Part shown: positions 15,779 to 32,246 of the stretch, one piece after another
How the letters are laid out: the number at the start of each line of letters is the position of its first letter
Numbering within the stretch: the stretch's first letter is position 1
NCBI GenBank assembly: GCA_913775315.1
Contig: CAJYIX010000012.1
Location: 1 to 52,827, forward strand
DNA length: 52,827 nt
Reading direction: 5' to 3'
From: an uncultured Sphingomonas sp.
Lineage (GTDB): Bacteria > Pseudomonadota > Alphaproteobacteria > Sphingomonadales > Sphingomonadaceae
Notes under the pieces: generated by a model
The model's input: the letters and a program-made list of their open reading frames with translations, nothing else
Databases searched by the model: none
What the model was told of the DNA's origin: nothing
Made by a program: the position numbers and the translations under genes

Positions 15779-15793
15779 TCCCCTCTCCCCCGG

Positions 15794-17395: not shown

Positions 17396-19713
17396 TGCCC
17401 GCGCACCACTTCGACCAGCGACGCGGCGTCCTGCCCAGTCGGCAGACGCCCGCTCGCCGACAGCCGGCCGGTCGCGTCGTTCCAGACGAGCTCGGCCTTC
17501 CTGCCCCCGCCGCGTTGATAGGCATTGGTGATGCCGTCATCGTCGTAGAGCGTGAAGCGCGCGTCGCGGCCGGGATAGACCCGGATCGCGGTCAGCGCCT
17601 GCTGCTCACTCGTGTTCTTCACCGCCGCGCCCACCGGCACGATCGACCCCGCGCGCACGAACAGCGGCATCCGCTCGATCGGTGCCGCCGCCTCGATCGT
17701 CTGGCCGCCGGTGTAGCGCTTGCTCGTCCAGTAGTCGTACCAGTCGGCGCCGGCGGGCAGGTAGACCGACCGGCTCGTCCGCCCCTGCTCGACGACGGGC
17801 GCGACGAGGAAGGCGGGGCCGAACATATACTGGTCGCGAATGTCGGCGACCTTGGGATCGCTGCCGAAGTCCATGAACAGCGCGCGCATGAACGGCGCCC
17901 CGCCCTCGTACGTCTGCCGCCCCAGCGAATAGAGGTACGGGATCATCGCGTAACGCAGCCGCAGCCAGTCGGCGAGGATCGGCTCGGCCGCTGCGCCATA
18001 TTCCCAGATCGCAGTCGCCGGCCGCTGGCCGTGGATGCGCAGCGTCGGCGTAAAGCTGTTATACTGGAACCAGCGGACGAACAGCTCGGGATAGTCGCGG
18101 TAATCCGGCCCCATGGCCGTGGCGCCGGCGGGATCGACCAGCACCGGCCGCTCCGCCTTCGGCCCGTTCGGCCACTGCCAACCGCCGGTATCGCTGCTGG
18201 TATAGGCGATGCCGCTCGCCGCCATGTTGAGCGTCGCGGGCACCTGCCGCCTGAGCGCTTCCCAGCTGGCATGCACGTCGGCGGTCCAGAAGATCGCGCC
18301 CGACGCCTGCGCGCCGGTGTAGGCCGCGCGCGCGAGGATCAGGTTGCGGAAATCTGGCCGGTCCTTCGCCGACCCCTCCGCCACGCCGGCGGTGTGTACG
18401 AGCGGGAAGAGATTGTAGAAGCGGTCGCCCGACCCGATCGAATATTGCTTCCCCGCGGGCACCAGATCCGGCTCGGTCTCGTCGAGCCAAAACCAGTCGA
18501 AGCCCTCGCTCGCCAGATTGTCGCGGATCCTGCCCCAGAACCACTGGCGCGCGTCGGGGTTGGTGCTGTCGATCAGCGCGCCCGCGCGGTCCGACCGGAT
18601 GGCGAGGCCGTAAGCCGGTTCTCCGTCCGGGTCCTTCAGGAACCAGCCCTTCGAGGCGAGCAGGTCGTAATAGCGCCCCTCCCGCTCGTATCGGGGCCAG
18701 ACCGACAGCATCGTGTGGAGCCCGCGCGCGTGCAGCTCGCGGTTCATGCCGGCGGGATCTGGGAAGGCGGTGCGGTCGATGTCCATCTGGCCCATCCGGG
18801 TCCAGTGGAACCAGTCGAGCACCATCACGTCGAGCGGCAGGTTACGCTTCGCATAACCGTTGGCGATGCCCATCAGCTCGCCCTGCGTCTCGTACCGCGC
18901 CTTGGACTGGATCAGCCCGAACGCGGCCTTGGGCGGGAGCGGCGTGCGGCCGGTCAGCCTGGCGTAGCCGGCGTAGAGTTCGTCGGTCGTCTTGCCCGTG
19001 ACGATGAAGAACGACACCCGCTCGCCCACGCGCGACTGGAACTGCGTCTTGTCGTTGATCCCCGGCGACACCGTCGTGACCGAGGGGTTGTCCCACAGGA
19101 TCGCATAGCCCTTGTCGGTGACGAGGAAGGGCACGCACACCGTCTCGCCGGTCGGCGCATCGTAATTGTGGCGACAGTCGATCGTCCGCCCGCGAAGGTC
19201 GAGCGCACCCTCCTGGTTCTGCCCCAGCCCATAATAATGCGTGCCCCGCGGTTCGGCGAAGGTCGCACCGATGCGGAACGTCTTCTCGCCGCTCACCTCG
19301 TGCGGGGCGAGTTCCCAGCCGGTCATCGCCGTGATCTCGCGCCCGTCCGCGCCCTTTACCGCGATCGACACCGGCGGCAGCGAGGGGACGAAGTAGCGCT
19401 CCATCTGGCTCGGCGCCTTGGGCCAAGGCTGCGCGTTCACCGTCACCGACAGATCGCCCGAACTGTACGTATCGCCCGCCGCATCGGCGCGGTGCGTCCA
19501 ACCGGCGGGTACCGGCTTGCCGCTGATCCCGTAACCCGGCCCCTTCTCGATCTCCTTGGAATCGAGTGCGATCGTCACATGGACGATGCCGGGGCCATAG
19601 GGCTCGATCGCCACCCGGCTGCCGTTGCGGTCGAGCATCGGAAAGGTCTGCGCTTCGGCCGCACTCGCCGCCAGGAGGGACATGCCGGCGAGAAGAAGGG
19701 GGCGAAGCATCAT
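17392..19713 (-). CDS. Glycoside hydrolase family 31 (alpha-glucosidase/alpha-xylosidase type)
   Basis: A 773-aa exported GH31 enzyme. The signal peptide ends ASAAEA. The N-terminal sandwich carries HYYGLGQNQEGALDLRG. The barrel holds AFGLIQSKARYETQGEL, LDVMVLDWFHW, the catalytic Asp in FDWFWLDETEPD at about residue 420, and the later FWTADVHASWEALRRQ and SSDTGGWQWPNG segments. C-terminal sandwich domains follow (GPAFLVAPVVEQGRTSRSVYLPAG). It is the first gene of a four-gene minus-strand operon, and its start is preceded by a candidate palindromic operator (19,734-19,756). The substrate may be an alpha-glucoside, alpha-xyloside or alpha-galactoside. Confidence 0.93.
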   Translation of the reverse strand: MMLRPLLLAGMSLLAASAAEAQTFPMLDRNGSRVAIEPYGPGIVHVTIALDSKEIEKGPGYGISGKPVPAGWTHRADAAGDTYSSGDLSVTVNAQPWPKAPSQMERYFVPSLPPVSIAVKGADGREITAMTGWELAPHEVSGEKTFRIGATFAEPRGTHYYGLGQNQEGALDLRGRTIDCRHNYDAPTGETVCVPFLVTDKGYAILWDNPSVTTVSPGINDKTQFQSRVGERVSFFIVTGKTTDELYAGYARLTGRTPLPPKAAFGLIQSKARYETQGELMGIANGYAKRNLPLDVMVLDWFHWTRMGQMDIDRTAFPDPAGMNRELHARGLHTMLSVWPRYEREGRYYDLLASKGWFLKDPDGEPAYGLAIRSDRAGALIDSTNPDARQWFWGRIRDNLASEGFDWFWLDETEPDLVPAGKQYSIGSGDRFYNLFPLVHTAGVAEGSAKDRPDFRNLILARAAYTGAQASGAIFWTADVHASWEALRRQVPATLNMAASGIAYTSSDTGGWQWPNGPKAERPVLVDPAGATAMGPDYRDYPELFVRWFQYNSFTPTLRIHGQRPATAIWEYGAAAEPILADWLRLRYAMIPYLYSLGRQTYEGGAPFMRALFMDFGSDPKVADIRDQYMFGPAFLVAPVVEQGRTSRSVYLPAGADWYDYWTSKRYTGGQTIEAAAPIERMPLFVRAGSIVPVGAAVKNTSEQQALTAIRVYPGRDARFTLYDDDGITNAYQRGGGRKAELVWNDATGRLSASGRLPTGQDAASLVEVVRGQ

Positions 19714-19830: not shown

Positions 19831-21120
19831 TTAGCTCCTCCCCGCCTCCCCCGGCTCGTAGTCCGCGGCGTTTCGCGCCGCGAGCCGCGCGGCGAACGGG
19901 CGAGCGACGAGGTTCCACCCCGTCAGCAGCGCCAGCCCGCTCGCGAACACCGCGCCGAGGACGATGCTCCACCGCGTATCGCCCAACCCCTCGGCCAGCG
20001 CCGCCATCGCGAGTGGGGCCAGCACCGCGGACAGGCAGGTAAAGAACAGGAGCAAGCCCGCGACCGCGCCGTGACGGCACTTGTCGAAGCAACTGATCCC
20101 CGTCGAGTTGATCGTCGGATAGAGCACCGACATGAACAGCCCGGTGGCGGGCAGCGCAAAGGTTGCGACGCCGCGGCCGCCGATCACGGACAGCCAGAAC
20201 AGCACCGCCATCGCGCCGCTGCAGATCGCGAGCACCGTGCTCCACTCGAACCGCCCGAGCAGCCAGACGCCAACGAAGCGCCCGCCGGCGCGCAGCACGA
20301 AGAAGATCGACACCGCATAGAGCGCCAGCCACGCCCACTCGCCCTTATAGTCGGCGAGATAGGTGGGCGCCCAGACATAGATCGCCGCCTCCGCCGCGAC
20401 GTAGAGCATCAGCGCGGCGGCAAAGAAGATCGCGGTCGGATCGCCAATCAGGCGCAGTGCCTCGCCCGTCTGCGGTCGTTCGGCGGGTGCGGCGACCGGC
20501 TGCGGAAAGCGCGCGAACACAGTGCCGAGCACGAGCAGCCCGCACAGCATCGCCGCGACCAGATAGACCCATTTCCAGCTCGCCCCGCCCTGTAGCAGTG
20601 CCGCTACCAGCGCCGGGCCGACGATCGCGCCGACGCCGAAAAACCCCTCGACCAGGTTCATCGTCGCGGCGTGCTCGCGCGTCGAACGGGTCAGGTCGCC
20701 GATCAGCGCGAGTGCGCCCGCCTTGAAGATGCCGATGCCGAGGCCGGAGACGAACAGCAGGAAGGTGAAGAAGAGGAAATCATGCCCTGCCGCGAACAGC
20801 GCCGAGCCGAGCCCGAACAGCGCAAGACCGATGAGGATCGTCGGCTTGCGCCCGATCCGGTCGGCAAGGAAGCCAAGCGCGATCGCCGAGAGGCCGATCC
20901 CCGACATTGTCGCATATTGGAACGACCCGCCCGCGGTCAGCCCAAGGCCGAATTCGCGGATCACCTCCGGAATGACGGTGCCGACCGAATCGGTGGTCAT
21001 CGCGAACATCGCGAACATGAGGAAGACCAGCGCCTTGAGCAGGACCGGCGCTCGATCCTGCACGATCCGGTGGCCGCCGACCGACGATGCCTGCGAAGCC
21101 ACGCCCTGATAGCCGCTCAT
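19831..21120 (-). CDS. MFS sugar transporter
   Basis: A 429-aa permease with about 12 membrane segments. The ATG at 21120 follows GGTGGAGAGG by 3 bp; upstream in-frame codons to 21168 lack a site. MFS loop motifs are LADRIGRKPTILIGLALFG after helix 2 and a second-half GGRFVGVWLLGRFEW. It shares a 116-bp divergent region with the GH68 gene, and a CAATCGATTG palindrome lies in the middle, so both genes are probably repressed by the LacI protein at 22,367. It is likely to import sucrose, fructose or a related product into the cytoplasm (inference from GH68 and LacI). Confidence 0.88.
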   Translation of the reverse strand: MSGYQGVASQASSVGGHRIVQDRAPVLLKALVFLMFAMFAMTTDSVGTVIPEVIREFGLGLTAGGSFQYATMSGIGLSAIALGFLADRIGRKPTILIGLALFGLGSALFAAGHDFLFFTFLLFVSGLGIGIFKAGALALIGDLTRSTREHAATMNLVEGFFGVGAIVGPALVAALLQGGASWKWVYLVAAMLCGLLVLGTVFARFPQPVAAPAERPQTGEALRLIGDPTAIFFAAALMLYVAAEAAIYVWAPTYLADYKGEWAWLALYAVSIFFVLRAGGRFVGVWLLGRFEWSTVLAICSGAMAVLFWLSVIGGRGVATFALPATGLFMSVLYPTINSTGISCFDKCRHGAVAGLLLFFTCLSAVLAPLAMAALAEGLGDTRWSIVLGAVFASGLALLTGWNLVARPFAARLAARNAADYEPGEAGRS

Positions 21121-21170
21121 GCCCTCTCCACCCTTGATTTGGTCGCAGGCTAGGCGGTTTCGCGCCATGA

Positions 21171-21184
21171 TGCAATCGATTGTT
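21171..21184. promoter_or_regulatory. LacI-type operator between MFS and GH68 genes
   Basis: TGCAATCGATTGTT contains the perfect 10-bp palindrome CAATCGATTG (21,173-21,182) with the central CG typical of LacI-family operators. The same core recurs twice upstream of the TonB-receptor operon that ends in a lacI gene. It lies about 52 bp before each of the two divergent start codons. Confidence 0.75.
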
Positions 21185-21236
21185 GAAACAGATCCGGCTT
21201 TGCGCCAAGGTGGCAGTCATCGCTTTGGGGGAGGAT

Positions 21237-22370
21237 ATGACCGTGGCTCGAACGCACCCGCTCGCCGGGGTCTGGTCTGCGGATGCCGCCCGGCTTGCCG
21301 CAGCGCAGCCGGATGCCGCGATCGCGCCGTTCGCTGCCCCCCCGCGCGATCCGGGGCTTCCCGATCTCGACCTGTGGGACATGTGGCATCTGACGGAAGC
21401 CGATGGCTCGACGGTGTTCGACGGCGGGCGAAGCTGGTGGTTCTTCCTCGCGACGCCCCGCTTTCCCGATCCGGAGGCACGGCACGACCATGCGCGTATC
21501 CGCCTGCTGAGCCACGGCGAGGGCGGCTGGCGCGATCATGGCTGGACGTTCGAACCGGGGTTCACCCCGGGTAGCCGCGAATGGTCGGGATCGGCGGTGC
21601 GGACGACCAACGGCAGCGTCCGGCAATTTTTCACCGCCGCCGGTCGCCGGGGCGAGCCGACGACATTCGAGCAGCGGTTGTTCGAAACGCGCGCGCCCTT
21701 CGCGATCGTCGACGGCGAGCCGCGCTTCGGCGCGTGGAGCCCGCCGGTCGAATGCGTGGTTGCCGATGGCGCGCATTACGCGGTCGCGCGCGACGCCGCT
21801 GCGGCTCCCACGGGCATCAAGGGCTTTCGCGATCCGGGCTATTTCCGCGATCCCGCCGATGGCCGCGAATATCTGTTGTTCACCGCCAATGCCGGCGGCG
21901 CCGACCGATTTCCCGACGGCGTGATCGGGGCGGCGACGGCGAGCGGCGACGGCTGGTCGCTGCTGCCGCCGATCGTGTCGGCGGTGGGCACCAACAGCGA
22001 GTTGGAGCGGCCGCACGTCGTCGTCCATGCCGGCCGCTATTATCTGTTCTGGTCGACGCACGCGCATCGCTTCGCGGCCGGCATCGGCGCACCCTCCGGC
22101 CTCTATGCGATGGTCGCCGAGCGGATCGGCGGGCCTTGGCGACCGGTCAACGGATCGGGGCTGGTGGCCGCGAACCCCGGATCGGCGCCGGTCCAGGCCT
22201 ATTGCTGGTGGGTGACGGACGAGCTTCGCGTCGCGAGCTTCGTCAATTACTGGCGCGGCGGCCCTGCGACGGAGCCCGAAACGCCCGAGGCACGGCGCGC
22301 GGCGTTCGGCGGCGTTCCGGCGCCCTTCTTCGACCTCGTCATCGACGGCGACCGGATCGCCATTGCCTAA
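21237..22370 (+). CDS. GH68 levansucrase/invertase-type enzyme
   Basis: A 377-aa GH68 five-bladed-propeller enzyme acting on sucrose or fructans. The nucleophile Asp48 lies in LDLWDMW. EWSGSAVR follows, then the stabiliser RDP motif with Asp199 (GFRDPGYF), and the acid/base Glu257 in SELERPH. The ATG at 21237 follows GGGGGAGGAT. No signal peptide is visible (MTVARTHPLAGVW). It is therefore either cytoplasmic or exported by a non-classical route, as reported for Zymomonas GH68 enzymes. It is divergent from an MFS gene over a LacI operator, and its end overlaps the convergent lacI end by 4 bp. At under 400 aa it lacks Gram-positive-type extensions. Confidence 0.9.
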   Translation: MTVARTHPLAGVWSADAARLAAAQPDAAIAPFAAPPRDPGLPDLDLWDMWHLTEADGSTVFDGGRSWWFFLATPRFPDPEARHDHARIRLLSHGEGGWRDHGWTFEPGFTPGSREWSGSAVRTTNGSVRQFFTAAGRRGEPTTFEQRLFETRAPFAIVDGEPRFGAWSPPVECVVADGAHYAVARDAAAAPTGIKGFRDPGYFRDPADGREYLLFTANAGGADRFPDGVIGAATASGDGWSLLPPIVSAVGTNSELERPHVVVHAGRYYLFWSTHAHRFAAGIGAPSGLYAMVAERIGGPWRPVNGSGLVAANPGSAPVQAYCWWVTDELRVASFVNYWRGGPATEPETPEARRAAFGGVPAPFFDLVIDGDRIAIA

Positions 22371-23398
22371 GCACTGTCGCGCGGCACCAGTATCGGCGGC
22401 ATCTCGACCGAGGGGGCGTCCGCGCCGCCGATCCGGGCGAACAGCGCGTCGACCATCGCGCGCGCGCCGGTGACGAGGTCCTGTCGCACCGTCGTCAGGC
22501 GCGGCACGATGCTCTCGGACAGCGGCAGGTCGTCGAAGCCGGTGACGGCGATGCGGCCGGGCACCGATATGCCGCGATCGACCAGCGCGCGGATTGTCCG
22601 CATTGCGATCACGTCGGACGCCGCGGCGATGCCATCGACTTCGGGCGGCAGCGCATCGACATGGCCCGCGATCTCGTCGGCCATGATGTCGGAGGCGAGG
22701 TGCGTATCGAGTTGCAGCGGCGGCGGTAGACCCGCCGCGGCCAGCGCATCGCAGACGCCGCGATGTCGCTCGATCAGTTCGAGCGTCCGCACCTCCCCCA
22801 GGAAAGCGAGCCGGCGGCAGCCGCGTTCGATCAGCCGATCGGCGGCAAGCCGCCCGCCCATGCGGTTATCGACGCCGACCGCGCAATGCACCTGTCCGGG
22901 CAGCGCGCTGCCCCAGACGACCAGCGGGCGATAAGTCGCGGCGACGCGCTCGATCGCCTCGAACTGGTCCGACTGACCGATCAGCAGCACGCCGTCGAGC
23001 ATGCCCGAGGTGACGATCCGCTCCAGCCAGTCGTCGGCATCGGGAATGATGCGCGACAGCATCAGGTCGTACCCATTCTCGGTCAGCGCATCGGCGAGGT
23101 GACCGAGGATCGTCATGAAGAACGGGTCGGACAGATGCTGGCGCCGCTCGTGCCCCAGCGGCACGACCACGCCGATGACGCCGGTCCGCTGCGTGCGCAG
23201 GCGACGCGCCATCTGGTTGGGACGAAAGCCGTGCTCGTCGGCCAGCTTCTGGATCCGCTCGCGCGTTTCGGCGCTGATGAGCTCCTTGCCTGCCAGCGCA
23301 CGCGACACGGTGCCCGCCGTCACCCCCGCCAGCCGCGCGAGATCGGCGAGCGTGCGGACCCGCGGCGTCGTTCCTTCTGGATCGTTGGTCTTGGTCAT
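22367..23398 (-). CDS. LacI-family repressor, predicted regulator of the GH68/TonB-receptor regulon
   Basis: A 343-aa LacI repressor. The DNA-binding helix-turn-helix is at residues about 15-40 (RTLADLARLAGVTAGTVSRALAG), with the hinge helix NQMARRLRTQRTGVIGVVVP. The periplasmic-binding-protein-like sensor domain follows (DGVLLIGQSD, GVDNRMGGRLAADRLIERGCRRLAFLG, VTGFDDLPLSESIVPRLTTVRQD). It is the last gene of the receptor/halogenase/oxygenase operon (ATGA overlap with the oxygenase). CAATCGATTG-type boxes occur at the head of its own operon and between the MFS and GH68 genes, so autoregulation is likely. The inducer is presumably a fructoside or its metabolite. Confidence 0.92.
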   Translation of the reverse strand: MTKTNDPEGTTPRVRTLADLARLAGVTAGTVSRALAGKELISAETRERIQKLADEHGFRPNQMARRLRTQRTGVIGVVVPLGHERRQHLSDPFFMTILGHLADALTENGYDLMLSRIIPDADDWLERIVTSGMLDGVLLIGQSDQFEAIERVAATYRPLVVWGSALPGQVHCAVGVDNRMGGRLAADRLIERGCRRLAFLGEVRTLELIERHRGVCDALAAAGLPPPLQLDTHLASDIMADEIAGHVDALPPEVDGIAAASDVIAMRTIRALVDRGISVPGRIAVTGFDDLPLSESIVPRLTTVRQDLVTGARAMVDALFARIGGADAPSVEMPPILVPRDSA

Positions 23399-24759
23399 CC
23401 ACCCCGCCTTGCCGCAGGTACGATATCAAACGCAATGTTGAGCCGCTCGCCGAATGTGAACGGTAACGTCGAATGCCAAAGCGTTGAAGGAAAAAGGACA
23501 AGCCGCCCCACCACCGGACGGACGACGCGGCGCGGGGGCAGGTCGAGACCGAGCTCGGGCGGCGGCACGCCGAGCGCCAAGGCGCCCTCCTCCGCGTCCG
23601 GCAGCGCGACGTAGAAGGCCGAGCTCAGCCAGCCGGCCGGATGCGTGTGCGGCACGTTGCGCCCGCCGCCCGAGAGGCGCACCGACCAGCTGCCCGCTAG
23701 CCGCAGTGGCCCGCGCGGGCGCCCGAGCAGCGGGTGCGGCGGATCGGGCGGCGGCAGTTGCGCGACATGCGCCTCCACCGCCGCCATCAGCGCGGCGCGG
23801 GTCCGCTCGAGGATCGGTTCGTGGCGGAGCAGGACCGAGCGATCGGTCTGCGTGCCCCCGCGCACCGACTGTTCGCCATAGGGCGCGCGGGCGGTATGGA
23901 GCGACCGCAGTGTCTCGGCCAACTCGCCCATCTCGGCATCGGACAGCGCCACCGGGTATTCGCCGACAAGCTGCGGATCGCCCTCCAGCCACTCGGCCGC
24001 CGGATCGTCGAGCAGCCGCCACGCCAGCGCCAGATAGGGCCAAGCAAGCATCGCCGCCGGCCCGCCCAACATCGCCAGCGCACTGCCGCGGGCACCTGCC
24101 CAATCCCCCTCACGCAGGGCGAAGCGGATGCGGCAGATCGACAGGCCGGCATCGTCGATGCCCGTCGTGAGGCCAAGCAGACGGCGGGCCTCGTCCCGAT
24201 CGGTGTCGCGCTCGACCGCCATGAACGTCTCGGCAAGCAGCAACCCGCGTGTCTCGCCGATCGCAGTGCGCGCCCGGTCGAGGATCGTCCGTGCCGCTGG
24301 CCAGTCGCGCTGCTGCGCCACCGCGGCGAACCAGGCGAGCCACAGCGCGGCGTTGCCGGGCACCGCCTCGACCCCGGCGCGATAGCCCGCAAACGGATCG
24401 CCCAGCCCATGTGTCCAGCGCAGCGTCGCCAGTACCCGCTGCCCGTCCAGCCAGTCGGGCGCCGCGGCGACCGCATCGGCCAGCAGCGCCTCCCCCCGCT
24501 CGGGCGCCCCCTCCGCCGCGAGTGCCAGTACCTCATTGCGCAACAGGTCGCGATCGCCGGGGGCAAGTGCCCGCGCCGCTGCAAACAGCGTGGCGGCGGC
24601 AAGCCCGCGTTCGAATTGGATCTGCGCCAGGCAGCGCACGACCATCGGGTCGCGCGGCGCCAGCGCATACGCGCGGGTGAAGGCGGCGTCGGCCTCGCCC
24701 ATCCGCTCTTCGCCTCGCAAAGCCATGCCCCGGCCGATGAGCGCGGCAACGTCGCTCAC
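23395..24759 (-). CDS. TPR protein fused to a 2OG-Fe(II) oxygenase-like domain
   Basis: A 454-aa protein. The GTG start at 24759 overlaps the halogenase stop (GTGA). Residues 1 to about 250 are helical TPR-like repeats (MGEADAAFTRAYALAPRDPMVVRCLAQIQFERG, and later units). The C-terminal 200 residues look like the putative 2OG-Fe(II) oxygenase family: GRNVPHTHPAGWLSSAFYVALPD gives the first metal His pair, and LVLFPSTLWHSTLPF followed by RLNIAFDIVP gives the distal His and Arg. The usual HxD is written HTH here. Homologous proteins are common beside TonB receptors and flavin halogenases in sphingomonads. The target is unknown; hydroxylation of a peptide or protein held by the TPR is plausible. 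Confidence 0.8.
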   Translation of the reverse strand: MSDVAALIGRGMALRGEERMGEADAAFTRAYALAPRDPMVVRCLAQIQFERGLAAATLFAAARALAPGDRDLLRNEVLALAAEGAPERGEALLADAVAAAPDWLDGQRVLATLRWTHGLGDPFAGYRAGVEAVPGNAALWLAWFAAVAQQRDWPAARTILDRARTAIGETRGLLLAETFMAVERDTDRDEARRLLGLTTGIDDAGLSICRIRFALREGDWAGARGSALAMLGGPAAMLAWPYLALAWRLLDDPAAEWLEGDPQLVGEYPVALSDAEMGELAETLRSLHTARAPYGEQSVRGGTQTDRSVLLRHEPILERTRAALMAAVEAHVAQLPPPDPPHPLLGRPRGPLRLAGSWSVRLSGGGRNVPHTHPAGWLSSAFYVALPDAEEGALALGVPPPELGLDLPPRRVVRPVVGRLVLFPSTLWHSTLPFTFGERLNIAFDIVPAARRGG

Positions 24760-26264
24760 GCCGTCACCCGGCAGTTGCGCTCGATGAACTCGGCATGGGT
24801 CGGCACGCGCGCCGCCTCCGCCGCCATCGCCGCGCGCAGCTTCGCCAGCCAGCCGCGCGCATCGACGCTGCGGTGATCGAGCAGCGGATCGAGGCCGTCG
24901 GGAAAATTGAGCTGACCGATATGGACGGCGAGCCAGCTCGGCGGCGCGAACAGGTCCATCTCGCGCGCCACCAGCCGGCCGTGGCGGCGGAAATGATCGA
25001 GCTTGAGCTTCAGCGTGTCGGGCACGTCCATCGCCGCGCAGTATCGCCACAGCTCCGCATCGGTCCGCTCGGTCAGCTTGTAGTGGAGGATCAGGAAGTC
25101 GCGGATCCGCTCGGTCTCGATTCCGGTAACGCGGTTGAACTCGTCGATCGTCGCGGGGTCGAAATCACGGTCGGGGAACAGCGCCAAGAGCTTCGAGATG
25201 CCCGCCTGAATGAGGTGGATCGAGGTCGATTCGAGCGGCTCCAGAAAGCCCGACGACAGGCCGATCGCGACGACGTTGCGATTCCACGCCAGCCGCCGCC
25301 GCCCGGTAACGAAGCGCAAATGCCGCGGATCGGCCAGCGCCGGTGCGTCGAGCCGCCCGAGCAGCGCCGCCGCCGCCGCATCGTCGCTAAGGTGCGCGCT
25401 GCAATAGACATAGCCGTTGCCGGTGCGATGCTGAAGCGGGATGCGCCACTGCCACCCCGCATCTCGCGCGGTCGAGCGGGTATAGGGGATCGGCGCCTCG
25501 ACCCGCGCGGACGGCACCGCGACCGCACGGTCGCAGGGCAGCCAGTGCGTCCACTCCTCGTACCCGGTCGCCAGCGCCCCCTCGATCAGCAACCCGCGAA
25601 AGCCCGAGCAGTCGACGAACAGATCGGCATCGATCGCGCGCCCGTCCGCCAGCGCCACCCGCTCGATATGCCCGCTTTCGCCGGCGAGCGCGACGTGGCC
25701 GACCTTGCCCTCGACCCGGACGACGCCCTTTGCCTCCGCATAGCGGCGCAGGAAGCGGGCATAGAGCCCGGCGTCAAAGTGGAAGGCATAGTCGTAGGTC
25801 GACAGGACGCTGCGCTGGTCGGAGCTGGGCGGCGCGAACCGGCCCGCGCGGGCGAGGTGCCAAGCCATCGAATGCTCGTCGAGAGAGGCGCCCTCCCCCT
25901 CTGCCCTTGCGCGCAGCCAGTGCTGGTGCAGCGGCACGATGTCGAAGTTGCGGCCGTGCGGGCCGAAGGGATGGAAATAGCGGTGCCCGACCCGCGCCCA
26001 GTCGACGAACTCGATGCCGAGCTTGAACGTCCCCTGCGTCTCGGCGACGAACTGCCGCTCGTCGAGCCCAAGCGTGTCGTTGAAGATGCGGATCGGCGGG
26101 ATCGTCGCCTCGCCCACGCCGACGGTGCCGATCTCGTCGGACTCCACCAGCGTGATCGTCGTCCCGTGTTGGAGCGCTTGTGCCAATGCCGCGGCGGTCA
26201 TCCATCCCGCCGTGCCGCCGCCGACGATCGCCACCGATCGAATGCGCCGGTCGTTGCCGCTCAT
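24756..26264 (-). CDS. Flavin-dependent tryptophan halogenase-like protein
   Basis: A 502-aa flavoprotein of the tryptophan-halogenase family. The FAD motif is GGGTAGW at residues 15-21. GEATIPPI follows, then the position of the catalytic lysine (K81 in TFKLGIEF). The halogenase motif WxWxIP appears as WQWRIP, and a C-terminal GLSSGFLEPLESTSIHLIQ segment is conserved in the family. Length is close to PrnA-type enzymes. It lies 78 bp behind the TonB receptor, separated by a strong hairpin, and overlaps the oxygenase gene. Halogenase homologues of this type recur in TonB-receptor carbohydrate loci of Xanthomonas, Caulobacter and sphingomonads. Their natural substrate is unsettled. Confidence 0.92.
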   Translation of the reverse strand: MSGNDRRIRSVAIVGGGTAGWMTAAALAQALQHGTTITLVESDEIGTVGVGEATIPPIRIFNDTLGLDERQFVAETQGTFKLGIEFVDWARVGHRYFHPFGPHGRNFDIVPLHQHWLRARAEGEGASLDEHSMAWHLARAGRFAPPSSDQRSVLSTYDYAFHFDAGLYARFLRRYAEAKGVVRVEGKVGHVALAGESGHIERVALADGRAIDADLFVDCSGFRGLLIEGALATGYEEWTHWLPCDRAVAVPSARVEAPIPYTRSTARDAGWQWRIPLQHRTGNGYVYCSAHLSDDAAAAALLGRLDAPALADPRHLRFVTGRRRLAWNRNVVAIGLSSGFLEPLESTSIHLIQAGISKLLALFPDRDFDPATIDEFNRVTGIETERIRDFLILHYKLTERTDAELWRYCAAMDVPDTLKLKLDHFRRHGRLVAREMDLFAPPSWLAVHIGQLNFPDGLDPLLDHRSVDARGWLAKLRAAMAAEAARVPTHAEFIERNCRVTA

Positions 26265-26301
26265 GCCGCCCTCTCCTTCGGCGTCATGGTTAGGATAAAG
26301 C

Positions 26302-26332
26302 GCGGGCGGGTGCCAAGCCGGCGCCCGCCCGC
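26302..26332 (-). terminator. Intercistronic GC hairpin between TonB receptor and halogenase
   Basis: A 13-bp stem (GCGGGCGGGTGCC at 26,302-26,314 pairing with GGCGCCCGCCCGC at 26,320-26,332, one G-T pair) with a 5-base loop. On the coding strand it is followed only by TTTAT, so it is more likely a partial terminator or mRNA-stabilising element than a full stop. It would set receptor mRNA above the downstream halogenase, oxygenase and repressor mRNA. Confidence 0.5.
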
Positions 26333-26342
26333 GAGGCAGGGG

Positions 26343-28898
26343 TCAGAAGTTGAAGCGGACCGAGCCGGTGAAGGTGCGGCCGAGCGCCGGCTGTCCGCTA
26401 ATCACCGTCGGGGTGACGGTCGGATCGGCGACGCCGCCATTGCCGCGCAGGTCGAAGGTGTCGAACAGGTTGTAGACGTTGACGCCGAGCTCGACGTTGC
26501 GGATCGGCGACACCGTCGCGTTGGCGTTGAAGATCGCCTTGCCCGGATACTCGCGGCCGACATCGTCAGTGGCGCTGGTCTGGCCGGTCATGGCAAGGCC
26601 CAGCCCGACGATCTCCGCCACCCGGTAATTGGCGACGACGTTGTAGGTGAGGTCGGGCAGGTTCGGTGAGCGGGTATAGTCCGCTGCGCCGGTATTGAGC
26701 CGCTTGGCCTGGGTATAGGTCGCGTTGGTAAACAGCGAGAACGGCCCGCTGTCGAAGGTGCCCGTCCACTCGAGGCCCTGCGACTTGAACTTCGCATCGA
26801 TGATGCACCCGCCCGCACCGCCCGGGCAGCGCGTCGCCGACAGCTCGAACGTGCTCTGCTTGAAATTGGCCTTGAGCAGCGAGAGCTGGACCGAATAGCG
26901 CCCGAAGCTGAAGCGGCCCTGGTTCTTCACGCCGATCTCGTACTGGTTGACGAAATCGACCGAGGGGGTGAGGCCGTCGGCAGCGCAACCGTTGGTCCCG
27001 GCCCGCGCATCGGCGCTGTTGCACAGGTCGCCGTCGCGCGAGAATTTGCCGCCGAAGGTCTGACGATCGCTGTTGAACCGCCCGCCGCGCGACGCGCGCG
27101 CGAAGATGTTGGTGTTGACGCTGGGCTTGAACCCGCCGCCCACGGTCCAGCTGGTGTAGTTGCGCCGATAGTCGAGGACCTCGACCGGGCCGTTGGCGGT
27201 GATCGTCGGGATGCGCACGCCGCCCGAATTGACGAAGAACTCGGCCCCGCCCGCGCGGCCGCTGCCGCTGGCCTTCACCGACTCGAACCGGACGCTGCCG
27301 TCGATCTGGAACTGGTCGCCGGTCAGGTCGAGCCCGACATAGGGCGCCGTGTTCTTGTACGAATAGTCGTAGTCGCGGCTGCAGCAGCTGCCCCAGTTGT
27401 TGTTGTAACCCGAGATGCCCTCCTGCGTCAGCTTCGCGCCCGCCGCATCATAGAGATCGAGCTGCGCCGGATTGTCGCCCGATACCTCGCGCAGCGAGCG
27501 GTCGACGTGCCAGTCCATCGCGATCTTCTGATTCATGTAGAACAGGCCCGCGCGTGCGGTAAGGCGGCCGAAGCTCCCTGCGTCGAACTTGCCCGACAGG
27601 CCGAGGTCGTTGGCGAAGCTGCCCACGTCGCGGATGTTGGTGCGGACGTTGACGTTGTTGTCGACATAGGTGCCGGTATAGGCCTGCCCCGCGCGCGGCC
27701 CGTTGGCGTAGCGGATCGAGGCCACCCGGGCATAGGGAACGCCGTTCAACGTGAGCTGCGACCCGATCACGCTGGCGCGCGTCGCGACGTTCAGGAAGGG
27801 CGAAGTGAACGCACCGTCCATCGCGGTGTAACGGGCATTGTTGTCGATCGTGAAGTGATCGCCCCAGTCATAGTGAAACTGCGCCTGGATCGCCTGCGTG
27901 TTCGTGGTGATGCCGTCCATTGGCACGCGGCGCAGCGTGCTGTCGCGGTCGTAAATCAGGAAGTCGCGATTGTAGATCGAGTAGTTCGACGCGCGCCGCC
28001 CGTCGAAGCCCGGAAACGGCTTCACGTTGCTGACATCGAGGCCGTTGATCGTCGCGAGTGCCGGGGCGCCGGTATAATTCGGCTCGCGCGTGTCGGCGAG
28101 CTTGAAGAGCACACGGACATAGCCGTTGCCGTCGTCAAAATCCTGGGTGACGTTGCCCTTCACCTGATAGCTGTCGCTGGCCCGGTAATCGGCGCGCAGC
28201 GGACCCTTGCCGGTGCGATAGAAGCCGCCGATGTGGAAGCGCGTCGTCTCGCCGATCGGTGCGCCGTAGCGGAAATCGACGCGCTGCTCGTTATAGCCGA
28301 TGCCCTGATTGAACGCGACGTAACCGCCCGCCTGCTCGCCATAATGGCTGATGTAGTTGATGACCGCGCCCGGCGCCTGCGACGCGAATGTAGCCGCACC
28401 GCCGCCGCGCACCGCCTGCACGTCGGCGACCGAGGCGTCGAAGCGGGTCCAATAGTCGTTGTTGCCGAACTGCATGTCGCCGAACAGCACGGTGGGTAGC
28501 CCGTCCTCCTGCAACTGGACAAAGGGCGAGCCGCCGGTCGCGACCGGCAGGCCACGCACCGCGATGTTCGAATTGCCGCCCGGGCCGGCGGTGCCCGCGA
28601 CCTGGATGCCGGGGATCAGGCGCAGCGCCTCCGATTCCGAGCTCGGGCGGAAGGTTTGGATCGTGTCGGCGGAGATGGTGGTGACCGAAACCGAACTGTC
28701 GAGCTGCCGCTTGTCGCGTCCCGATGCGGTGACGACGATATCGTCGAGCGCACCCTGATCGGCGTCGGTGGTGCTCGGCTGTCCCGCTTGCGCATCGATC
28801 GGTGCGGGGGGCACGGTGGCGGTCTGGGCAAGGGCGGGCGCGCTTCCCGCGGCGACCCCGATCAGCGACGTGCAAGCGAGCAGCAGCGTACGGTTCAA
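26343..28898 (-). CDS. TonB-dependent receptor of the predicted sucrose/fructan regulon
   Basis: An outer-membrane receptor of 851 aa. The best start is TTG at 28898, 5 bp after GGGGAGG and directly before a signal peptide (NRTLLLACTSLIGVAAGSAPALAQ). Upstream ATG codons in frame lie on or beyond the operators. The TonB box is LDDIVVTASG. The plug follows (ALRLIPGIQVAG, NIAVRGLP, VQAVRGGGAATFASQAPGAVINYI), then a barrel ending in FTGSVRFNF. It contains two cysteine-bearing loops (GSCCSRDYDYS and the CNSADARAGTNGC region). It heads the operon with halogenase, TPR-oxygenase and LacI, preceded by two LacI-type boxes. Likely cargo is a fructoside such as sucrose or levan oligomers. Confidence 0.92.
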   Translation of the reverse strand: MNRTLLLACTSLIGVAAGSAPALAQTATVPPAPIDAQAGQPSTTDADQGALDDIVVTASGRDKRQLDSSVSVTTISADTIQTFRPSSESEALRLIPGIQVAGTAGPGGNSNIAVRGLPVATGGSPFVQLQEDGLPTVLFGDMQFGNNDYWTRFDASVADVQAVRGGGAATFASQAPGAVINYISHYGEQAGGYVAFNQGIGYNEQRVDFRYGAPIGETTRFHIGGFYRTGKGPLRADYRASDSYQVKGNVTQDFDDGNGYVRVLFKLADTREPNYTGAPALATINGLDVSNVKPFPGFDGRRASNYSIYNRDFLIYDRDSTLRRVPMDGITTNTQAIQAQFHYDWGDHFTIDNNARYTAMDGAFTSPFLNVATRASVIGSQLTLNGVPYARVASIRYANGPRAGQAYTGTYVDNNVNVRTNIRDVGSFANDLGLSGKFDAGSFGRLTARAGLFYMNQKIAMDWHVDRSLREVSGDNPAQLDLYDAAGAKLTQEGISGYNNNWGSCCSRDYDYSYKNTAPYVGLDLTGDQFQIDGSVRFESVKASGSGRAGGAEFFVNSGGVRIPTITANGPVEVLDYRRNYTSWTVGGGFKPSVNTNIFARASRGGRFNSDRQTFGGKFSRDGDLCNSADARAGTNGCAADGLTPSVDFVNQYEIGVKNQGRFSFGRYSVQLSLLKANFKQSTFELSATRCPGGAGGCIIDAKFKSQGLEWTGTFDSGPFSLFTNATYTQAKRLNTGAADYTRSPNLPDLTYNVVANYRVAEIVGLGLAMTGQTSATDDVGREYPGKAIFNANATVSPIRNVELGVNVYNLFDTFDLRGNGGVADPTVTPTVISGQPALGRTFTGSVRFNF

Positions 28899-28960
28899 GA
28901 CAACCTCCCCATTTCGCGGACCATCGTCGGTGGTCCCGGCGTTGAGGATCAACATAGCTA

Positions 28961-28986
28961 TGCAATCGATTTCCTGCAATCGATTG
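28961..28986. promoter_or_regulatory. Tandem LacI-type operators upstream of the TonB-receptor operon
   Basis: Two copies of the box lie 14 bp apart: TGCAATCGATTT (28,961-28,972) and TGCAATCGATTG (28,975-28,986). The second has the perfect CAATCGATTG palindrome, the first has one base changed. They sit 63-88 bp before the TTG start of the receptor gene and match the box between the MFS and GH68 genes. Confidence 0.75.
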
Positions 28987-29048
28987 TTCGTGCGGCCGAT
29001 GACCCTTTGGGATGATCGCCGGGCACGACTTTGCGAGCCTGGAACGCA

Positions 29049-29082
29049 AAAAGCCCCCACCGATGGCTCGGCAGGGGCTTTT
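29049..29082 (-). terminator. Rho-independent terminator of the GMC/DUF1080 operon
   Basis: Arms AAAAGCCCC (29,049-29,057) and GGGGCTTTT (29,074-29,082) enclose a second small CCGA/TCGG pairing. On the minus strand the hairpin is followed by a T-run. It lies 22 bp past the stop of the gluconate-dehydrogenase-subunit-like gene and insulates that operon from the receptor operon downstream. Confidence 0.8.
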
Positions 29083-29104: not shown

Positions 29105-29800
29105 CTAGGCGGGCGTCAGCTTGAGCGTCGCAAGGAGCGCGGACAGGTGGGCCAGCGCCTCCTGCGACGGGCCGGGATAGGGCCCCTCGGTCGGCTGGTC
29201 GCCGATATAGCCCATGTCCGCCTTCCCCTCGGGCAGGGTATAGAAGCCGAGCACGAGCAGCCCGCGCATCCGGTCCATGAACCGGACGGGCATCTCCATC
29301 GCGCCTGCGGGGGCCGCGGTGCAGAGCGTATCGAGCAGCCCGCCGCGCGTTTTCGCGTCCAGCGCCGTGAACCGCTTGCGATACTGCGCCTCGCCCTGCC
29401 GGTCGAGCCAGGTCAGGCCGCCGAGGATCAGTGCCCGGTCGGCCTGCTGCGCCGGATAGGGCGAACTGATCCATTCGTCGACGAACGCGCCGATGCCGAG
29501 CTTAGCGGCGCTCGGCGACACCTCGTCGGCGGGCAGGATCATGTCAGCCAGCAGGTCGACCGATGCGCGCTGCGCCGGGGTCAGCGTCAGCGGCCAGACG
29601 ACCTTCGGCTCCATCAGCGTCGGATCGCGGCCATAGCCCTTCGTCGGCGGCAGCGGCGGGACCGGTCCCGGCCAGTCCGCGACCACGGGCAGCGGCGCCC
29701 CCTCCCCCGCCGCCGCGCCCGCTTCGGGGGCGAGCCGGGCGAACGGCAGGGCAGCGGCGGCCATCATCCACTGCATCGTCGTGCGGCGCGACAGCGTCAT
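29105..29800 (-). CDS. Gluconate 2-dehydrogenase subunit 3-family protein (Tat-exported)
   Basis: A 231-aa small partner subunit of a GMC-type dehydrogenase. The Tat leader has SRRTTMQWMMAAAALPFA. The family core is LTLTPAQRASVDLLADMILPADEVSPSAAKLGIGAFVDEWIS and later LLDTLCTAAP. The C-terminal region MRGLLVLGFYTLPEGKADMGYIGD is typical of subunits paired with glucoside 3-dehydrogenases. It overlaps the GMC gene by ATGA. It probably carries the catalytic subunit across the membrane by hitch-hiking on its Tat signal, since the GMC protein has no signal of its own. Confidence 0.88.
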   Translation of the reverse strand: MTLSRRTTMQWMMAAAALPFARLAPEAGAAAGEGAPLPVVADWPGPVPPLPPTKGYGRDPTLMEPKVVWPLTLTPAQRASVDLLADMILPADEVSPSAAKLGIGAFVDEWISSPYPAQQADRALILGGLTWLDRQGEAQYRKRFTALDAKTRGGLLDTLCTAAPAGAMEMPVRFMDRMRGLLVLGFYTLPEGKADMGYIGDQPTEGPYPGPSQEALAHLSALLATLKLTPA

Positions 29801-31497
29801 GCGAAAGCTCCCGACTTGAAGCGCGCGGCCAGCCGCTCGGACGAGCGCAGCGCCAGCGCGAGGATGGTGAGCGTCGGGTTCTTGTGCGCGCCCGAGGCGA
29901 AGATCGCGCCGTCCATCAACACCAGATTATCGACGTCCCATGCCTGACCATAGCCGTCGACCACCGACGATCGTTTGTCCGCGCCCATCCGCGCGGTGCC
30001 GAGTTCGTGAATGATCTCACCGCCCGCAGCCATGATCTTTTCGGGCGGCAGGGTCGGATCGTCCAAGATGCGGCCGCCCATCCGCGTGAAGATCGCGTGC
30101 GCCGTCTTTCGGCCGTGCGCGACCTGATTGATCTCGTTCCGCGAAAACTTGAACGCGAAGCGCAGGACCGGGATGCCGAACCGGTCCTTCACCCCCGGAT
30201 CGATCTCGCAATAGGTGTCCTTGTTGGGGATCATCTCCCCGCGCAGCGCCATGCCGATCGTTGCGCCCGACGCCTGCCGCACCGCTTTCTTGAGGTCGGC
30301 GCCCCAGACGCGCGGCAGGACGTTCGACGACGGCACGCCGAACCGCCCCCACACCTCAAAATGATAGCCGCGCGCGAAATCGAGCTCGCCGCGCTTCTGC
30401 TGCTCGTAGAGCCAGAACGGGATGTAGATGTGCTGCCCGCCGATCCCGTCCTCGTTATAGCGCGGTCGTCCGGCAAGGCCGGGGATGTAGGCGGTGAACG
30501 ACGCCCCCGTCGAATCGGTCAGGTTGCGGCCAAGCTCACCCGAAGAATTGGCAAGGCCCCGGCCCGGCGTGCCGGAATTGAGGAGCAGCCGCGTCGTCTC
30601 GCCGGTGCCGGCGGCCAGCACGACCGCCTTCGCCCGCACCTGATGCCGCATGCCGGTCTTGCGATCGACATATTCGACGCCGGTCGCGCGGCCCGCCTTG
30701 TCGGTGAGCACACGGCTGACCATCGCGTCGGTCTGGACCGTCAGCTTCCCCGTCGCCTTCGCCTGGGGCAGGAAGGAGGTCGTCGTCTGGAACATCGCCC
30801 CGATCGTGCAGCCGCGCGTGCAGGGCGAGGCGTTGTAGCAGGCGGCGCGCGGCGCGACCGGGTCGGGCATGTCGCGCGTCAGCACCGCGGTGTGCGCCGC
30901 GCGGACGGGAATGCCCATGCTCTCGGCCGTCGCCTTGATGAGCATTTCGGGGATGCGGGGCTTGGGCGGCGGCATCAGGCACTCGGCGGGCGAGTCCGGG
31001 TGATTCTCCAGCCCGATCGGGCCGCCGTTGACGCCGATCATCTTCTCGACCCGGTCATAGAAGGGCGCCACGTCGTCATAGGAAATCGGCCAGTCGACGC
31101 CGAGCCCGTCGCGGGAGAAGGGCTTGAAGTCGTACGCGCCCCAGCGCGGCACGTGGCGGCCCCAATGGTTGGTCCGTCCGCCCAGCATCCGCGGGCGCCA
31201 CCATTTGAAATCGCTGCCGGGCGCGGAGGTATAGGGCTCGCCCGTCACTTCCCAGCCGCCGTCGACCGTCGCGTCGAAATAGCCGAACGGCTTGTCCGGC
31301 GTGCCGCTGCCGCGCAGCGGCGCGTCGCTTTCCGGCGCGAGCATGTTGACTTCCGCCTGCGGGTCGTAGTCGCGCCCCGCCTCCAGCATCAGGCAACGCA
31401 GCCCCGCCTTGGTCAGGGTATAGGCGGCCATGCCGCCCGCGGCCCCCGATCCGACGATGACGACGTCGGCGGGTGCGGTTTCCGGTCCGGGGGTCAT
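29797..31497 (-). CDS. GMC-family FAD oxidoreductase (glucoside 3-dehydrogenase type)
   Basis: A 566-aa flavoprotein. The ATG at 31497 overlaps the DUF1080 stop. The FAD-binding motif VVIVGSGAAGGMAAYTL is at about residues 11-27, the second GMC signature is GGRTNHWGRH, and the C-terminal active-site region reads IIHELGTARMG and then ASGAHKNPTLTILALALRSSE. There are cysteines in CYNASPCTRGC. Together with the subunit-3-like protein it matches the catalytic/small subunit pair of pyranoside 3-dehydrogenases, which oxidise the C3 hydroxyl of a sugar. The adjacent DUF1080 gene supports this. The exact sugar and electron acceptor (no cytochrome subunit is encoded here) are unknown. Confidence 0.9.
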   Translation of the reverse strand: MTPGPETAPADVVIVGSGAAGGMAAYTLTKAGLRCLMLEAGRDYDPQAEVNMLAPESDAPLRGSGTPDKPFGYFDATVDGGWEVTGEPYTSAPGSDFKWWRPRMLGGRTNHWGRHVPRWGAYDFKPFSRDGLGVDWPISYDDVAPFYDRVEKMIGVNGGPIGLENHPDSPAECLMPPPKPRIPEMLIKATAESMGIPVRAAHTAVLTRDMPDPVAPRAACYNASPCTRGCTIGAMFQTTTSFLPQAKATGKLTVQTDAMVSRVLTDKAGRATGVEYVDRKTGMRHQVRAKAVVLAAGTGETTRLLLNSGTPGRGLANSSGELGRNLTDSTGASFTAYIPGLAGRPRYNEDGIGGQHIYIPFWLYEQQKRGELDFARGYHFEVWGRFGVPSSNVLPRVWGADLKKAVRQASGATIGMALRGEMIPNKDTYCEIDPGVKDRFGIPVLRFAFKFSRNEINQVAHGRKTAHAIFTRMGGRILDDPTLPPEKIMAAGGEIIHELGTARMGADKRSSVVDGYGQAWDVDNLVLMDGAIFASGAHKNPTLTILALALRSSERLAARFKSGAFA

Positions 31498-32246
31498 GGC
31501 TTGTCCACAATGGCGCTCGGCCCGATGGGGCGAAGCTTGATGTTGCGATAGGCGACGGGTTCGCCGTGATCCTGCAGTGCGATGACGCCGCTGCCGAAGG
31601 TGCCGAAATGCGGCATCTTCGCGAACTTCGATTTTGCGACGCGCGCGCGCCACGCATCGTCGCCATAGCTGACGTCGGCGGTCATCACCCCGTTCAGCCA
31701 CTGGCGGATACGGCCCGGCTGGACCAGCAGCCGCGCATGGTTCCAGCTCCCCGCCGGCCGCGCCGCACCCGCCGGGGGCACGGTCATGTCGTAGAGCGCA
31801 CCGGCCCGGTGCGAGGGGATCTTGCCATCCGGATGGCCGGCATCGTCGAGCACCTGCATCTCCAGCCCGGTTTCATAGACCTGCTCCGTATCGGCCAGAT
31901 TGCGCGCCAGATAGAGGACGCCGCTGTTGCCGCCCTTCGCCGTCTTCCAGTCGAGGGTGAGTTCGAACGCGCCATAGCGCCCGGCGGTGACGAGGTCGGT
32001 GCCGCTCATCTGCCCATCGGCCTTGACGAGTTCGATCGTCCCGTCCCTCACCCGCCACGTCGGCGGCGGGGCGCCCCCGGCAAAGGATCGCCAGCCCGAC
32101 AGGTCCCGACCGTCGAACAGCAATGTCCAGCCGGCCTTGCGCTCGGCGGCGGTCAGGCGGTTCGTGGCCGGCGCCTGCGCGTCCGCGGCGACGCCCATCG
32201 GCAGGAGGAGCAGGCTCGCCAGCGCGGCCCGCAGGGGGTTGGACAT
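31494..32246 (-). CDS. Secreted DUF1080 protein (3-keto-glycoside hydrolase/lyase fold), copy 2
   Basis: A 250-aa exported DUF1080 protein. The signal peptide ends GVAADAQA. The entry motif is GWTLLFDGRDLSGWRSF. Further family segments are GQMSGTDLVTAGRYGAFELTLDWKTAKGGNSGVLYLA, YETGLEMQVLDD, SWNHARLLVQPGRIRQWLNGV and GVIALQDHGEPVAYRNIKLRP. It starts the three-gene operon with GMC dehydrogenase and its small subunit, so it should act on a C3-oxidised glycoside. It is distinct from copy 1 (shorter, with different loops), suggesting a different aglycone or linkage. Confidence 0.88.
   Translation of the reverse strand: MSNPLRAALASLLLLPMGVAADAQAPATNRLTAAERKAGWTLLFDGRDLSGWRSFAGGAPPPTWRVRDGTIELVKADGQMSGTDLVTAGRYGAFELTLDWKTAKGGNSGVLYLARNLADTEQVYETGLEMQVLDDAGHPDGKIPSHRAGALYDMTVPPAGAARPAGSWNHARLLVQPGRIRQWLNGVMTADVSYGDDAWRARVAKSKFAKMPHFGTFGSGVIALQDHGEPVAYRNIKLRPIGPSAIVDKP

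Follow-up and report, generated by a model that had tools for sequence, protein, structure and literature searches.

What controls the sugar-uptake genes clustered at positions 21,171 to 28,986 of a 52,827-nucleotide stretch of DNA from an uncultured Sphingomonas sp. (that whole stretch is called the window below), and which sugar do they serve? The locus comprises a divergent pair of genes for an MFS transporter and a GH68 enzyme, together with an operon that begins with a TonB-dependent receptor and ends with a LacI-family regulator (Table 1). An initial annotation had proposed that a single LacI repressor joins these genes through a palindromic box. Judging from sequence comparison, we find it very likely that GCAATCGATTGC serves as operator for a LacI-family sucrose repressor of sphingomonads, which is encoded last in the receptor operon and would control the units for uptake and cleavage.

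Palindromic boxes in the window and in the genome

We have searched the sequence of the window and found CAATCGATTG exactly at 21173-21182 and 28977-28986, and the variant CAATCGATTT at 28963-28972. These two exact boxes and one variant lie precisely where they had been reported. The two exact 10-mers compare with a mean of 0.07 in dinucleotide shuffles (n=100; 0/100 reach 2), and the two copies of the 14-mer TGCAATCGATTGTT in the window compare with none in 100 shuffles. A count over the whole genome (3.25 Mb) gives three occurrences of CAATCGATTG, the third at C41:42551, and the 14-mer marks the same three sites, each in the promoter of regulon-type genes. The annotation had seen no other full copy and would have counted boxes confined to the two promoters as support. 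It is right for the window; in the genome both promoters are recovered together with one more copy, at the unlinked C41 locus.

In the open reading frames (ORFs) as listed, the boxes at 28963 and 28977 fall within an over-long ORF, and the box at 21173 is just outside the MFS gene. We have judged the likely gene starts by eye from Shine-Dalgarno spacing. With starts at 21120, 21237 and 28898, all three boxes become 5' non-coding and lie in likely promoters, in agreement with the earlier view that they belong to promoter DNA. Promoter-like pairs were chosen because of their pattern and because two or three close relatives conserve them. In the receptor promoter, TTGCAG is contributed by the perfect box and the second box occupies the spacer, while the TTGCAT of the MFS promoter is likewise contributed by a perfect box. 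The MFS hexamer TAGCCT is unchanged in loci L093 and L094 although the spacer differs, and the degenerate operator TGCAATCGATTTCC is retained in the same two loci. The receptor-promoter hexamer drifts more among relatives (TATGTT, TATGTG, TATGGC). Overall, the predicted geometry of promoters and boxes suits a repressor site. In addition, the twin boxes are 14 bp apart in the window and 23-24 bp apart in relatives. We count these spacings as support, since they are close to the peaks of 13 and 22 bp given for paired sites of LacI-family regulators in the available text of a comparative study (PMC4052901).

Boxes and regulator among relatives

The distribution was examined in the window's genome and 60 others of its genus (n=61). 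A GH68 ortholog is found in 22/61 genomes and an amylosucrase in 10/61 (none in the window's genome), and both together in none; the chance probability of this zero overlap is 0.007 if kinship is ignored. The LacI ortholog, defined by an identity of at least 45% (a cut-off placed, once the list was known, at its gap between 45% and the next value, 40%), is present in 33/61 genomes, that is, in 22/22 with GH68, in 10/10 with amylosucrase, and in G039, where homologs of the receptor, the halogenase, GH13 and GH31 lie close to LacI and twin boxes stand 5' of the receptor. Within one mismatch, GCAATCGATTGC occurs at 21 of the 22 GH68 loci (exception L045) and at all ten amylosucrase loci. The exact 11-mer gives 112 distinct sites, 81 in LacI-bearing genomes and 31 over the 28 LacI-lacking ones; for 65 of the 81, a gene for GH68, amylosucrase, LacI or TBDT2 lies no more than 16 kb away.

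Loci were also collected by protein. The protein-led scan gave 41 loci, filed under Sphingomonas (37), Novosphingobium (1), a Caulobacteraceae bin (1), Microvirga (1) and Arthrobacter (1), of which the last two may be mislabelled; at least five (L093, L095, L098, L108, L124) are probably already in the 61-genome set. In Sphingomonas yantingensis DSM 27244, the proteins of the locus show 90-99% identity. Among 57 GH68 loci fetched by protein (a set that omits L026, L030, L031, L036, L040 and L093 and counts S. spermidinifaciens twice, as L027 and L095), a box within one mismatch is present in 50, and at least two such boxes are present in 33. The 57 loci hold 117 such sites, whereas one dinucleotide shuffle gives 4 and the reversed box none.

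An upstream census was taken after dropping 19 repeat or overlapping loci, seven LacI paralog loci, upstream intervals running off the contig, partial matches below 60% length, and receptor or LacI matches below 31% identity. A box with at most one (two) mismatches precedes the receptor TBDT1 in 37 (39) of 40 cases and MFSb in 27 (43) of 53, the 10 without a box being mostly within amylosucrase operons. The proportions are 7/9 for the window-type MFS, 7/8 for TBDT2 and 4/4 for the C41-type GH13. GH68, which is usually operon-internal, has a box in 12/55 and LacI in 9 (10) of 57, and the neighbouring GH31, GH35, GMC, gluconate_2-dh3 and 3-keto-disaccharide hydrolase genes have none (0/16).

The box at C41:42551 is flanked on one strand by a second TonB receptor, followed by two halogenases, and on the other strand by a GH13 glucosidase. 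This glucosidase has a signal-peptide-like start, and its nearest solved relatives are an alpha-glucosyltransferase, an alpha-glucosidase and a sucrose isomerase. Orthologs of the C41 receptor (at least 75% identity) occur in 6/61 genomes; each of the six receptor genes is preceded by a box within one mismatch, and each of the genomes carries the C12-type LacI, i.e., that of the window. A seventh, distant receptor of this type (G003, 38% identity; L092) has no box. Since the box recurs at this unlinked locus and at its orthologs, the regulon cannot be called self-contained, as the annotation had it.

A near-box GCAATCGTTTGC (L001 5654) was observed 103 bp from the first C41 box, within the start of the GH13 gene. 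It is retained in S. yantingensis (L074, L087) and is possibly a looping partner of the first box.

The operator sequence, its placement and conservation, its co-occurrence with LacI, and the alternation of GH68 with amylosucrase are thus established here. With this comparative support, the core of the initial proposal appears to hold: one LacI regulon, sux-like and in a GH68 variant, would join the receptor operon to the divergent MFS/GH68 pair, as relatives have the same LacI family and the same box. The palindromic switch is common to many relatives, and through it a sugar-sensing repressor probably governs sucrose import and cleavage.

Proposed mechanism

Based on the above analyses, we infer LacI binding, repression, induction by sucrose and the direction of the GH68 reaction. 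Without sugar, LacI dimers on operators overlapping the -35 region or the spacer would hold transcription low at three units, namely receptor-halogenase-oxygenase-lacI, MFS and GH68. The same operator would act on two unlinked units, the second receptor with its two halogenases and the divergent GH13 glucosidase. On the entry of sucrose, or of an oligosaccharide that contains it, LacI would be released; the receptor would then serve import through the outer membrane and the MFS carrier through the inner membrane, and GH68 would cleave the imported sugar in the cytoplasm.

Substrate of the regulon

The comparisons point to sucrose and raffinose-type sugars as substrates. At L056, a locus without GH68, the closest solved proteins of the amylosucrase are the amylosucrase 9r8i and the sucrose hydrolases 3cze and 3czk, and the other nine amylosucrases are 49-94% identical to it. 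The closest solved match of the window's GH68 is 7bj4 (E 6.8e-65), and D48, D199 and E257, which we take to be the catalytic residues, are kept in 62/62 alignment rows. No signal peptide is visible by eye on GH68, and the enzyme is cytoplasmic by appearance.

Levan or fructan, which the annotation had named beside sucrose, finds no support and was rejected as substrate: besides the GH68 without a visible signal peptide, the genome has only two weak GH32 matches (23.0 and 19.4 bits vs a cut-off of 22.1), both off contigs C12 and C41.

A gene for a GH36 alpha-galactosidase is placed between MFS and GH68, or just 3' of GH68, in many loci (L029, L032, L036, L100 and L112 among them). Such an enzyme would release sucrose from raffinose and is expected for raffinose-family sugars. 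There is also an esterase-rich variant of the regulon (L038, L039, L041, L043, L044, L067-L070, L085, L132), with genes for GH68, a ROK-family kinase, a GDSL lipase, Abhydrolase_3, BD-FAE, a carboxylesterase and a ceramidase-like protein, and with 5 to 7 exact 11-mer sites inside a span of ~20 kb in G026, G053, G019 and G057. It reads like a system for the use of acylated sucrose, e.g., plant sucrose esters. A literature search, covering mostly non-subscription papers, returned nothing on bacterial acylsucrose or acylsugar catabolism among the matches listed.

Inducer and cargo could accordingly be a larger sucrose compound. This might be a raffinose-family sugar, or else a sucrose bearing aromatic or acyl groups, the non-sugar part then being the target of the halogenase and the oxygenase. 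The GH36 genes adjoining GH68, the esterase-rich loci with the same box at several units, and the halogenase HAL1 accompanying one receptor group all speak for this idea. However, the window's regulon as drawn has no GH36 and no esterase, and sucrose alone suffices as the expected substrate of the amylosucrase loci, so we hold the larger compound to be possible but lean towards sucrose itself.

Points against the operator and other accounts of the boxes

Several points weigh against GCAATCGATTGC being the operator of this regulon. The boxes coincide with none of the promoters that a sigma-70 scan lists. With up to two mismatches the window shows no enrichment (16 observed vs 22.2 expected), so the case for the boxes depends on near-exact copies. 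Seven of the 57 GH68 loci (L045, L099, L102, L107, L109, L118, L130), some of them truncated by contig ends, have no box within one mismatch. Seven of the ten amylosucrase loci were fetched for carrying the exact box and three by protein, and the genomes are related, their counts being non-independent events. Finally, 16 of the 81 exact 11-mer sites in LacI-bearing genomes lie elsewhere than near the genes named above.

Isolated boxes were inspected at 12 loci with a purpose-written gene caller; nine are within genes and three are intergenic (L047, L048, L064). They are taken as background except for L048, which may be real. At L048 (8276, G009), an intergenic perfect box is found just 5' of a GH36-cluster gene, followed by a TonB receptor, and perhaps marks another regulon member.

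Could the boxes, or at least some of them and in particular the unlinked one, be read by another LacI-family protein? Eight LacI genes are present in the genome. None was found on contig C41, and the C41 locus lacks a LacI gene of its own. In the recognition helix, the LacI orthologs mostly have a small second residue and most paralogs of the genome differ; two paralogs, L140 (VA) and L136 (QS), likewise have a small one, a further point against our reading, and the comparison therefore does not single out the window's LacI. The contig-edge paralog (C32, L140) even resembles the orthologs at two recognition-helix positions. On the other hand, the C12-type LacI is present wherever box loci are, in 32/32 genomes with GH68 or amylosucrase and in 6/6 with the C41-type receptor, which makes a different reader quite improbable.

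That the boxes are chance palindromes or elements foreign to sugar regulation, as the missing enrichment at two mismatches, the roughly one exact 11-mer per LacI-lacking genome (31 in 28) and the nine isolated boxes inside genes might suggest, is hardly tenable, since boxes cluster at sugar loci and the same promoters keep them across species.

Halogenase, oxygenase and receptor

HAL1 is assigned as a BrvH-type flavin-dependent halogenase. Its closest solved protein is BrvH (6frl, E 6.7e-156), and K81, W271, W273 and E342 are invariant in 32/32 HAL1 rows; K81 is presumably the catalytic Lys, with W271 and W273 in the WxWxIP motif of flavin-dependent halogenases. Unexpectedly, the halogenase is a regular member of the predicted regulon. 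In the census, 14 (16) of 29 HAL1-type genes have a box within one (two) mismatches upstream. For nine of these 14 the box is in a divergent promoter common to the receptor, and in five closely related loci (L114, L116, L119, L121, L122) HAL1 has a box distinct from that of the receptor. Thirteen HAL1 genes are boxless: six come after the receptor and share its strand (the window's HAL1 among them), one follows MFS (L027), five are upstream of the receptor (L028, L029, L036, L123, L128), and the remaining one (L033) is a remote homolog (41%). At L036 and L128, a near box is seen that lacks the central CG.

For 42 receptors, HAL1 is in the fetched locus of 24 and absent from that of 18, four of the latter being nested among HAL1-bearing kin. 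The label changes only twice on the receptor tree, so the association of HAL1 and receptor carries little independent evidence. Receptor residue 503 (frame window:26343-28901, motif GYNxxWGxCC) is Trp in 24/24 receptors with HAL1 and Phe in 18/18 without. In the receptor model (mean predicted local distance difference test, pLDDT, 71.1), Trp503 is in a long loop, 473-507, with pLDDT below 50 at 500-505; the loop is probably extracellular. Trp503 was considered as a halogenation site and rejected, as it is not unique (five columns, P, Y, Q, N and W, are fixed in HAL1-bearing receptors and never the same residue in the others), stands in a low-pLDDT loop and follows the two tree changes. Given the long, probably extracellular loop, the residue is explained more simply by a contact with the cargo. 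It also seems rather unlikely that sucrose scavenging includes a dedicated, sucrose-induced halogenation or flavin oxidation that is coupled to the receptor, whether on the aromatic part of a sucrose conjugate imported by that receptor or on the receptor itself.

The 2-oxoglutarate (2OG) oxygenase was observed at just three loci, namely this one, that of S. yantingensis and that of an uncultured relative. A weak hit (E 0.001) links its TPR part to the TPR region of O-GlcNAc transferase. Among the protein families named in the annotation, MFS_1, GH68, LacI, the 2OG oxygenase, Trp_halogenase and the TonB receptor are all recovered, and only the TPR part is weakly seen.

In the left part of L056 and L057, genes for a receptor, SapC, Cupin_8 and a halogenase adjoin the amylosucrase locus, and appear to form another receptor-linked set of oxidising enzymes. 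Over mostly non-subscription papers, the literature search gave no link of a tryptophan halogenase to a TonB-dependent receptor together with a sugar regulon, LacI or sucrose, as judged from listings and the openings of abstracts, and nothing for a halogenase with SapC, TonB-dependent receptor and LacI.

Layout of the locus and neighbouring genes

The regulator has a LacI-type helix-turn-helix and a sugar-binding domain (PF00356, PF13377 and PF00532, all above cut-off). Its operon runs in the order receptor, halogenase, oxygenase, lacI, with a 78-bp gap and then two 4-bp overlaps, and lacI is convergent with the GH68 gene.

Table 1 Features of the locus, in window coordinates
Feature	Position	Strand	Remarks
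MFS transporter	19831..21120	-	PF07690 (MFS_1); start shifted inward by eye from 21168
GH68 enzyme	21237..22370	+	PF02435 (Glyco_hydro_68), 170.8 bits
LacI-family repressor	22367..23398	-	PF00356; last gene of receptor operon
Putative 2OG-Fe(II) oxygenase	23395..24759	-	PF13759 (2OG-FeII_Oxy_5); weak TPR-like N-terminal part
BrvH-type flavin-dependent halogenase HAL1	24756..26264	-	PF04820 (Trp_halogenase)
TonB-dependent receptor TBDT1	26343..28898	-	TTG start; PF00593 + PF07715
Predicted operator TGCAATCGATTGTT (14-mer)	21171..21184	+	between divergent MFS and GH68 genes
Predicted operator TGCAATCGATTGTT (14-mer)	28975..28988	+	5' of receptor operon
Second, degenerate predicted operator TGCAATCGATTTCC	28961..28974	+	between -35-like and -10-like hexamers; 14 bp from 28975 operator
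MFS promoter-like pair TTGCAT, 17 bp, TAGCCT	21147..21175	-	weak consensus match, picked by pattern
Receptor-operon promoter-like pair TTGCAG, 17 bp, TATGTT	28951..28979	-	weak consensus match, picked by pattern
Inverted repeat AAAAAGCCCC...GGGGCTTTT	29048..29082	.	read by eye; absent from terminator-scan list

The inverted repeat is probably a terminator that splits the receptor operon from the upstream gluconate_2-dh3/GMC genes. Directly upstream of that operon, at 29105-32246, genes for Gluconate_2-dh3, a GMC oxidoreductase and a 3-keto-disaccharide hydrolase stand in tandem; the set resembles a glucoside 3-oxidation cluster and has no box. On the other side, GH31, GH35-like and Gfo/Idh-like genes (14462-19713; the latter two assigned by eye) come after MFS and share its strand. 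No terminator is listed in the 118-bp gap after MFS, and transcription from the box promoter may therefore run on into these genes.

Significance

A conserved predicted operator and its regulator are now proposed for sucrose use in Sphingomonas, at loci that include many leaf isolates of the genus. Within one regulatory frame, two unrelated sucrose-cleaving enzymes, GH68 and amylosucrase, are exchanged. As a BrvH-type halogenase is placed under a predicted sucrose switch, growth on sucrose offers a handle on the role of receptor-linked halogenases.

Comparison with known systems

BrvH is a Brevundimonas flavin-dependent halogenase that was discovered through metagenome mining. It was assayed on indole, but its authors are doubtful that this is the natural substrate (PMC5945002). 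The brvH gene likewise has a second halogenase gene upstream, and the available text of that paper mentions no sugar regulon. Like the levansucrases and beta-fructofuranosidases of its family, the window's GH68 has the GH68 profile and the conserved D, D and E; unlike them, it is apparently cytoplasmic and stands behind an importer. For GH68 or levansucrase with TonB-dependent in Sphingomonas, the literature search, over mostly non-subscription papers, returned only a genome announcement.

Comparative genomics of LacI-family sugar regulons has given 11 non-orthologous sucrose groups, including SuxR and ScrR (PMC4052901). The available text of that study shares with the window a central-CG palindrome near promoters, a similar spacing of paired sites and a regulator encoded with its targets; a term search of its main text found no mention of sphingomonad, halogenase or TonB.

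The sux locus of Xanthomonas campestris consists of the receptor gene suxA, the amylosucrase gene suxB, the MFS gene suxC and the LacI-type gene suxR, and SuxR represses while sucrose induces, as described in the available text of PMC1790865. Both systems unite a TonB receptor, an MFS transporter, a sucrose-cleaving enzyme and a LacI regulator in one locus. Unlike sux as described there, the window has GH68 in place of amylosucrase, a halogenase and a 2OG oxygenase in addition, and an unlinked second receptor/GH13 locus carrying its box. The likeness is one of gene content. The annotation's comparison with sux gains from the relatives, which show the very exchange of GH68 for amylosucrase with the same-family LacI and the same box. 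By these comparisons, the locus is a sphingomonad counterpart of Xanthomonas sux, with GH68 as the predicted cleaving enzyme.

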